From Pedobacter nanyangensis (lineage in GTDB: Bacteria > Bacteroidota > Bacteroidia > Sphingobacteriales > Sphingobacteriaceae), in contig NZ_QMHO01000005.1 in NCBI RefSeq assembly GCF_003313505.1, forward strand, positions 1-64,000: 64,000 nt of DNA. Direction: 5' to 3'. The notes below the pieces were generated by a model. The model had not been told where the DNA came from. It saw only the letters and a list, made by a program, of their open reading frames with translations, and searched no databases. Position 1 is the first letter of the stretch. Each line of letters opens with the position of its first letter. This document shows positions 41,535 through 41,925 of this stretch, piece after piece. The translations under genes were made by a program, and so were the position numbers.

Positions 41535-41655
41535 TTATTGATTTATAAAGAAGTGGCGAGAGACTGGCTCAATGACCCACTGGCAACCCTCAAAAAGAGA
41601 AGGTGCCAATTCCTGACCAAAATGCATGGTGCATTTTGGAGATATAAATTAATAA
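41535..41655 (+). ncRNA. SAM-I (S-box) riboswitch
   Basis: The conserved core GAGAGACTGGCTCAATGACC, then CACTGGCAACC, and GGTGCCAATTCC match the SAM-I family, with an open-loop AGAGA and the AACC/GGTGC pair. The closing helix P1 pairs 41535-41546 with 41644-41655 (one G-T). P3 is CCTC-aaaaa-GAGAAGG-like, and P4 pairs 41617-41626 with 41630-41639. It binds S-adenosylmethionine and precedes metY. No intrinsic terminator with a U tract was seen before metY, so control may be at translation; P1 ends one base before the ATG of a small ORF (41657). Confidence 0.93.
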
Positions 41656-41656
41656 G

Positions 41657-41794
41657 ATGAAACTAATTAATTCTATCCCAGTAAGCAACTTAGTATCCGA
41701 GCAGGTCGGCAAAAACATGTTTTGTAATACCATTATTGGCAATTATTGTAACATGCCATCGATTTGTATGTGCCATGGCATGTACCAATCATAA
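41657..41794 (+). CDS. Met/Cys-rich 45-residue ORF directly after the SAM riboswitch
   Basis: A 46-codon ORF starts one base after P1 of the SAM-I riboswitch and ends 131 bases before metY. It has Met at 1, 21, 33, 38 and 42 and Cys at 23, 31, 37 and 39: eight sulfur residues in the last 25. The sequence has no signal peptide and no recognised family. Its start context (AATTAATAAG-ATG) would be closed by P1 when SAM is bound. It looks like a leader peptide whose translation depends on charged Met and Cys tRNA, but a functional small protein (for example metal-binding) is also possible. This is inference. Confidence 0.55.
   Translation: MKLINSIPVSNLVSEQVGKNMFCNTIIGNYCNMPSICMCHGMYQS
41712..41783 (+). 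promoter_or_regulatory. Alternative hairpins inside the Met/Cys-rich ORF
   Basis: AAAACATGTTTT (41712-41723) can pair with AACATG at 41750-41755. That second segment can instead pair, as ACATGCCA (41751-41758), with TGGCATGT (41776-41783) in an 8-bp stem. The two pairings exclude each other, as in attenuators. Neither is followed by a U tract. Confidence 0.4.
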
Positions 41795-41925
41795 AATCTT
41801 CCATTTTGTAATTCTTTAACAACTCGGAAGGCCCTAAGAAATTAGGGTACGCACATCAGTATATGCAGCAGGCCACTTTCTGCTAACAAGCCCCATTTAT
41901 TCATCATTCAAAATCGTAAAACAAC

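Follow-up and report, generated by a model that had tools for sequence, protein, structure and literature searches.

The metY locus of Pedobacter nanyangensis raises the question of what a short open reading frame (ORF), ending in Cys and Met codons, is doing at the very edge of a SAM-I riboswitch, and whether it adds a second signal to the one that the riboswitch reads. The locus lies within the 64 000 nt of contig NZ_QMHO01000005.1 that were analysed here (the window), and its features are as follows.

41535–41655 (core 41540–41650), + strand: SAM-I riboswitch (Rfam RF00162 match; extended P1 drawn by eye)
41657–41794, + strand: leader ORF, 45 codons plus TAA, MKLINSIPVSNLVSEQVGKNMFCNTIIGNYCNMPSICMCHGMYQS (open reading frame)
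41765–41785, + strand: Cys/Met codon cluster CMCHGMY with hairpin HP-A over it (alignment A1, consensus fold, pair counts)
41766–41772 with 41779–41785, + strand: HP-A, over the last Cys codons (alignment A1)
41751–41783, + strand: alternative pairing of 41751–41758 with 41776–41783, exclusive with HP-A (sequence)
41798–41830, + strand: HP-B, CUUCC 41798–41802 with GGAAG 41826–41830 (alignment A1)
41831–41851, + strand: HP-C, 41831–41837 with 41842–41848, then a conserved ACG (alignment A1)
41926–43233, + strand: metY, O-acetylhomoserine sulfhydrylase family, 435 aa (Pfam Cys_Met_Meta_PP, 465.9 bits)
43264–44322, + strand: metX-like alpha/beta hydrolase, 352 aa (Pfam Abhydrolase_1)
44461–45702, + strand: homoserine dehydrogenase, 413 aa (Pfam Homoserine_dh)

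The Rfam covariance model RF00162 (SAM) matches at 41540–41650 with 77.9 bits (E 1.3e-16), against a curated threshold of 44.4, and 13 pairs can be drawn by eye for P1, 41535–41547 with 41643–41655, its 3' strand stopping one base short of the ATG at 41657. The first gene 3' of the leader is the one that we take to be metY; the metX-like gene starts 30 nt after it, and the homoserine dehydrogenase gene, 138 nt after metX, possibly belongs to one operon with metY-metX. Upstream, the opposite strand carries genes for proteins in which Pfam recognizes serine acetyltransferase and PALP domains, probably cysE and cysM, and the locus can therefore be regarded as a sulfur amino acid cluster. The same genome carries a second SAM-I riboswitch, without a Cys-rich ORF, before a gene that is presumably metH. 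A search of the leader for a second known RNA family, with Rfam at a lax threshold, returned one snoRNA match far below the cut-off; a Flavo-1 RNA motif (RF01705, 43.4 bits) was seen at 45836–45914 of the window on the reverse strand, downstream of the homoserine dehydrogenase gene.

The leader ORF in Pedobacter

A DNA query composed of the leader and the start of metY matched 142 of 145 Pedobacter genomes, and the counts for the genus rest on the 130 leaders read from these. A script located the first ATG behind the aptamer in 128 leaders, and in the other two (L159 and L162) it was located by hand; in these two, by eye, a metX-like gene instead of metY follows directly behind the same leader. 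In all 130, an ATG 69–86 nt from the GGCAACC core of the aptamer opens an ORF of 25–49 codons, the stop of which lies 97–173 nt before the next gene; one leader (L074) has an additional, earlier ATG within the same stretch. The gap between P1 and the ATG is 1–9 nt in the 82 leaders, of the 130, for which a script could read it. Because any first ATG opens some ORF, the mere presence of an ORF is weak evidence, and it is the place, the frame and the Cys-rich end that carry the weight. At least two Cys are found among the last 12 residues in 129 of the 130 ORFs, L156 being the sole exception, and at least three in 113; the window's own ORF has two. The usual ends are CMCCC(I/M)x, CMCIRMY or CMCFGMY, and over the 130 ORFs Cys makes up 30.0% of the last 12 residues as against 5.6% elsewhere, and Met 17.3% as against 0.7%. 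An earlier note on the window, made from the sequence, had set the end of the riboswitch at 41655 and the ATG at 41657, and had counted five Met and four Cys in the ORF, eight of the nine in the last 25 residues; the Rfam match and the P1 drawn by eye bear out the former, and a count by eye the latter. The conservation that it had proposed to look for was found as well, the ORF and its Cys/Met content being kept in the genus and the Cys, as described below, across 11 families.

The same note had suggested a comparison of synonymous with non-synonymous change, and this revealed selection on the ORF at the amino-acid level. In 52 gap-free neighbour pairs out of 118 selected, pN/pS was 0.44 for the whole ORF, 0.52 for its first part and 0.28 for the last 12 codons, and substitutions peaked at third codon positions (149, versus 102 and 86). 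Among close pairs, gap lengths were divisible by three in 37 of 83 cases within the ORF versus 23 of 309 after the stop, with the caveat that 46 of the 83 ORF gaps are not multiples of three; a looser form of this test, in which poorly aligned pairs were mixed in, gave no triplet excess (129 of 446 ORF gaps). Dimers of TGY codons fall in the frame of the ORF 271 times and out of it twice in the genus, and 81 and 17 times, respectively, in the other leaders, while Cys codon use is mixed (352 TGT, 294 TGC). If these reading-frame statistics are right, the conserved short ORF upstream of the operon is translated.

The Cys cluster in other genera

The set from outside the genus comprised metY/metX SAM-I leaders from other genera together with a sample of 295 genomes of the class. 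In the latter, 67 metY loci (27 + 40) were available beyond three from the genus; 60 of these were scanned with Rfam (L316–L322 were left out), and SAM-I was found in 30. Removal of two duplicates (L231 and L227, identical to L262 and L264) reduced 41 test rows to 39 unique leaders. An ORF of 15–89 codons that starts −3 to +15 nt from the end of the aptamer is present in 36 of the 39, and in 29 of them, from 11 families (f1, f2, f15, f29, f31, f35, f39, f40, f41, f48 and f49), three or more of the last 12 residues are Cys, with ends such as CMCCCC*, CICMCCCCC*, CCMCICCPCC*, MCCCCCSSC* and STCCCCCC* (* being the stop). By this criterion ten of the 39 are without a Cys cluster: three leaders of one genus (f15/g96) have the ORF at the same place with Cys absent, L291, L310 and L311 are without such an ORF near the end of the aptamer, and L264, L295, L247 and L238 have at most two Cys. 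A further locus from another genus, L230, is without a leader, the ATG of metY itself lying about 10 nt past the aptamer, where the ATG of the leader lies elsewhere; it is in neither the test nor the control set, and its inclusion gives 29 of 40.

Behind SAM-I riboswitches that precede other genes (by eye metH, iscS, TonB receptors, homoserine dehydrogenase and others), a Cys ORF was found in none of 49 controls, 31 of which come from the same genus and are mutually related rather than independent. Shuffled downstream sequence satisfied the Cys criterion in 16 of 7600 trials. The last 12 residues of the 36 ORFs from outside the genus are 39.6% Cys and 11.6% Met, as compared with 0.8% and 2.2% in the rest of these ORFs. 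Cys is the constant signal and Met the secondary one, so that the earlier reading of the ORF as Met/Cys-rich was right and the emphasis belongs on Cys. By sequence comparison, then, the aptamer, the ORF at its edge, the frame of that ORF and its Cys end can be regarded as established.

In a third set of 80 named loci, with other phyla included, 77 were scanned, three having incomplete upstream sequence. Within the 800 nt upstream of metY, 24 of the 77 have a Cys ORF, versus three on the reverse strand; a regular expression recovered the SAM-I core in 33, and in 16 of the 33 a Cys ORF lies behind it, a count that misses L354 (ORF end CICMCCCC) and L366, in which the Cys run lies further from the stop. 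Named records with the arrangement include Mucilaginibacter, Olivibacter, Lewinella, Saprospiraceae, Cytophagales, Cyclobacteriaceae, Chitinophagaceae and Flavobacteriaceae. Rfam detected SAM-I in 19 of 20 named loci, which had been chosen mostly for their Cys ORFs, and the figure is thus a confirmation and not a rate.

Some further features of these leaders may be recorded here. In Balneola/Balneolaceae (L403 and L423), Cys/Met-rich ORFs (MMCMCCYMQTLH and KCMCMMMRT) precede metY by 318–347 nt and are followed by a terminator-like site, and the aptamer of L403 comes after the ORF, not ahead of it. An RMR or MRM motif stands beside Cys near the C terminus of a number of leader peptides, for example those of L229, L247, L270, L279, L362 and the TonB leaders described below. 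Three f41 loci (L259, L263 and L267) have an extra ORF of 73–75 aa between the leader and metY, with a shared GGHLP/GGHSP, which is perhaps a separate small gene.

Hairpins and terminators before metY

The stretch from the Cys codons to metY can be folded into HP-A, HP-B and HP-C. Alignment A1 holds 60 of 126 sequences, near-duplicates having been removed, and HP-B and HP-C, as the finding criterion, are enriched in it by choice. In A1, 95.9% of cells pair in the whole three-hairpin structure, compared with 31–56% when it is slid by 1–3 columns. HP-A has mixed support, with 93.3% of cells paired and both-side changes in three of its seven pairs; HP-B is nearly invariant (99.7%, both-side changes in one pair) and is conserved more than covarying; HP-C covaries, with both-side changes in four of six pairs and 95.8% of cells paired. 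A pattern for HP-B and HP-C was matched by 126 of the 130 genus leaders, and not by L133, L138, L150 and L161. Of the 124 leaders for which there is a value, 99 have 9–10 nt between the stop codon and HP-B, and this distance is shorter in leaders with two or three extra residues, a steadiness of spacing which suggests that the position of the ribosome relative to HP-B matters. When the leader was folded with a mask for the ribosome, the expected pairs of HP-B numbered 4.68 without a ribosome, 4.75 with a ribosome at the last Cys codon and 2.78 with one at the stop.

The mutually exclusive pairings proposed in the earlier note exist in the window, in that 41751–41758 with 41776–41783 excludes HP-A, and its hairpin at 41832–41847 is HP-C. 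The upstream exclusive pairing is not general: more than three expected pairs were obtained for it in 48 of 126 genus leaders, and for the hairpin over the Cys codons in 72. A model of the three hairpins (R1), used with strict filters, found 67 of 301 genomes of the family, with one copy each and all in one of 25 genera, and the genus form of HP-B/HP-C was not found by it in the 24 other genera sampled. The interpretation offered in that note has partial support, its main inference being strengthened by the conservation of the ORF and its Cys end, which extends past the Sphingobacteriaceae to which its proposed check referred. Two further roles for HP-B and HP-C were considered and rejected. 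As a switch into the start of metY they had no effect in the folding, accessibility being 0.56–0.58 with or without the ribosome mask; and as a module reused across the genome they were sought with a strict pattern in 21 genomes, 17 of which had a match, the matches away from metY being by eye due to chance.

The earlier note had found no U-tract terminator before metY, and the window's leader (L033) is absent from the six positives that a loose scan gave after the leader stop among the 130 genus leaders. The loose scan returned 38 of 130 when the ORF was included; in the five of these that were read, the hairpin is the one over the Cys codons, and the U-rich stretch begins only after an interval of some 20 nt. 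A strict scan was positive in four of the 130. Outside the genus, the loose scan gave 11 of 39, with many U runs not directly behind the hairpin, and the strict scan three of 29 Cys leaders (L265, L271 and L284) versus a shuffled expectation of 0.73; in these three, as in L356, L359 and L368 of the named set, the Cys codons lie inside a hairpin that is followed by a U-rich stretch. The strict scan of the named set was positive in seven of 24 (L356, L359, L368, L392, L400, L403 and L423), a count that is without a shuffled control and comes partly from sites far from the Cys ORF. An overlap of Cys codons with intrinsic terminators was set aside as a general mechanism, the excess of three in 29 over 0.73 being suggestive only. 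In one metagenome-assembled genome of the Saprospiraceae (L400), a Cys-rich leader ORF is followed by a strong intrinsic terminator, AAGAGCTGAA...TTCAGCTCTTTTTTTTT, 5' of metY, and SAM-I was not found at the Rfam threshold; judged from its sequence, this layout is near to the anatomy of a classical attenuator, in which a ribosome waiting on the Cys codons could keep the terminator open. After the leader stop, the base content of the genus leaders is 0.213 C and 0.127 G, and in 14 SAM-I control leaders the first 80 nt contain 0.163 C and 0.183 G; the bias of C over G would be compatible with a role for Rho.

Interpretation, related systems and other genes

We hypothesize that the leader combines two signals, a start that is gated by SAM and a pace of translation that is set by Cys (and Met) codons, in adjusting the expression of metY, and we would put the probability of this reading at roughly 0.7. 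Our working model is that binding of SAM to the aptamer closes P1 beside the start codon of the leader, so that ribosomes do not load, and that at low SAM the short ORF is translated. A scarcity of charged tRNA-Cys, and perhaps of tRNA-Met too, would then slow the ribosome at the terminal cluster of Cys/Met codons, and the place of the ribosome relative to the Cys-codon hairpin and the hairpins after the stop would decide on the transcript that reaches metY-metX. This last step would most likely be attenuation of transcription, Rho-dependent in Pedobacter and intrinsic in a few other lineages, and the expected logic is that metY would be fully on only when both SAM and cysteine are low. Control of the leader start by SAM would fit the position of P1 (1–9 nt from the ATG), and from the codon cluster we infer that the pace of the ribosome sets metY expression. 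Against a two-signal switch stand the folding calculations, which predict no switch into metY and an HP-B that is indifferent to a ribosome at the Cys codons. The scarcity of intrinsic terminators, the ten of 39 leaders without a Cys cluster, the leaderless L230, the failure to find the genus form of HP-B/HP-C in the other genera sampled and the mixed outcome of the gap test count against it as well. The wider proposal, that a SAM riboswitch gating a Cys-counting leader forms a two-input controller across the Bacteroidota, reading 'SAM low AND cysteine low' before metY, we consider somewhat more probable than its opposite.

It is also conceivable, though unlikely, that SAM gating is the whole of the mechanism, with the leader coupling the riboswitch to transcription via Rho, which would terminate leaders that are not translated and spare those that are, and the Cys codons slowing ribosomes without any sensing of cysteine. 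The arrangement of P1 and the start codon, on which this explanation draws, is the best supported part, and both the preponderance of C over G after the stop and the three g96 leaders that retain the ORF without Cys agree with it, but it leaves unexplained why a Cys cluster precedes the stop in 11 families and in none of the 49 controls. We give still less credence to a nascent-peptide sensor, in which the Cys/Met-rich C terminus would itself detect a metal (Cu, Zn, Fe-S) or redox state and arrest the ribosome, tRNA-Cys charging having no part in it. Cys and Met are metal ligands, and the pN/pS of 0.28 in the last 12 codons indicates selection on the amino acids; yet the spacing of the Cys residues and their neighbours vary freely (CCCCCC, CICLDGCCCC, CMCIRMY), in which they are, to our knowledge, unlike known arrest peptides, and the genes that are regulated are those of methionine synthesis. 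Copper-sensing upstream ORFs have been reported (PMC9426467, PMC9973294), which was counted in favour of such a sensor. A function in trans, with the peptide serving as a small protein rich in Cys, such as a carrier of sulfur or metal, would agree with translation of the ORF, if the reading-frame statistics are right, but is very improbable for peptides of 19–53 residues with a variable N terminus and no fixed spacing of Cys, that of the window being without a Pfam match. Just as improbable, and already disfavoured, is that the TGY runs are an RNA signal or a hairpin arm with an incidental frame, for although these codons lie in HP-A in the genus and in terminator-like hairpins in a few lineages, the dimers keep to the frame (271 to 2 and 81 to 17), TGT and TGC are mixed and the flanking sequence differs among families.

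Returning to the two-signal reading, the arrangement joins two known kinds of element, a SAM riboswitch and a Cys leader peptide. It shares the sequence and structure of its aptamer, and the position before methionine genes, with the SAM-I riboswitch (S box, RF00162), but what follows the aptamer here is an independent short ORF that contains a Cys cluster, instead of a terminator or the start of the gene itself. Like attenuators of the trp/his type, it has a short upstream ORF in which codons for a pathway amino acid are clustered towards the end, and hairpins come after it; unlike these, its start codon lies at the edge of a riboswitch, and most members are without a classical terminator. 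We know of no riboswitch that is paired with the polycysteine ORFs of mycobacteria. The latter are reported to be leaderless short ORFs that act as cysteine-responsive attenuators of operonic genes (Canestrari et al., 2020; PMC9094748, PMC13236596); they resemble the present ORFs in that Cys codons are clustered in them upstream of genes for sulfur metabolism, and differ in that the ORF here lies behind a complete SAM-I aptamer, in another phylum and before metY. In Mycobacterium tuberculosis, B12 riboswitches are reported to work jointly with translated upstream ORFs in controlling a gene downstream, the ppe2 upstream ORF overlapping the gene start (AUGA) and acting mainly by termination-reinitiation (PMC11260477); in contrast to what is described there, the ligand here is another one, the stop lies 97–173 nt before the next gene and a specific amino-acid run is present. 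Leader peptides have been inferred upstream of amino-acid operons in flavobacteria (PMC9723704), and short ORFs reminiscent of leader peptides have been noted in Bacteroides. No report of a SAM riboswitch gating a Cys leader was found in the literature searched, most subscription papers being outside its coverage, and this absence is weak evidence.

Riboswitches and leader peptides usually count as alternatives for sensing, and here one seems to gate the other; if true, this would be an RNA gate of natural origin with both sulfur amino acids as its inputs. The Bacteroidota are a large phylum of the environment, and the arrangement is found in at least 11 of its families, in many bacteria of soil and water. 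RNA regulation in the Bacteroidota has been little studied, and the two-signal reading would add a cysteine-responsive leader to it and would account for short ORFs rich in Cys that may escape gene finders. Since Cys leaders also occur without a SAM-I hit, before a TonB receptor in the genus g22 and before metY in L400, it is possible that the Cys leader serves the phylum more generally as a sensor of cysteine.

A pattern of four Cys codons followed by a stop gave 69 matches in ten genomes, as against nine for the reversed pattern. Thirty were examined: four are metY leaders and two belong to a conserved Cys ORF before a TonB receptor, and in 20 of the 30 there is no in-frame ORF that starts with ATG. 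No clear sulfur operon was seen among five loci followed up from this search (L433–L437), as judged by eye from N termini. The g22 ORF, present in two genomes (L340 and L348), has 24 residues, ends in ACCCC* and lies 54–57 nt upstream of the TonB-receptor-like gene; it is a Cys leader without a riboswitch, Rfam having found no SAM-I at either locus.

In Pedobacter, SAM-I leaders were also observed before SusC/TonB-like receptors (L003–L008, L010–L013, L017, L018, L020–L025 and L030–L032). A terminator-like hairpin follows the aptamer in all nine that were read, and such sites were recorded in 20 of the 21. In most of the nine a further short ORF comes next, for example MKKTDELKS...FRMRxxC*, and its last Cys and stop codons can fall in the 5' arm of a second terminator (CCTGTTA...TAACAGGCGTTTTT, in L003 and L004).
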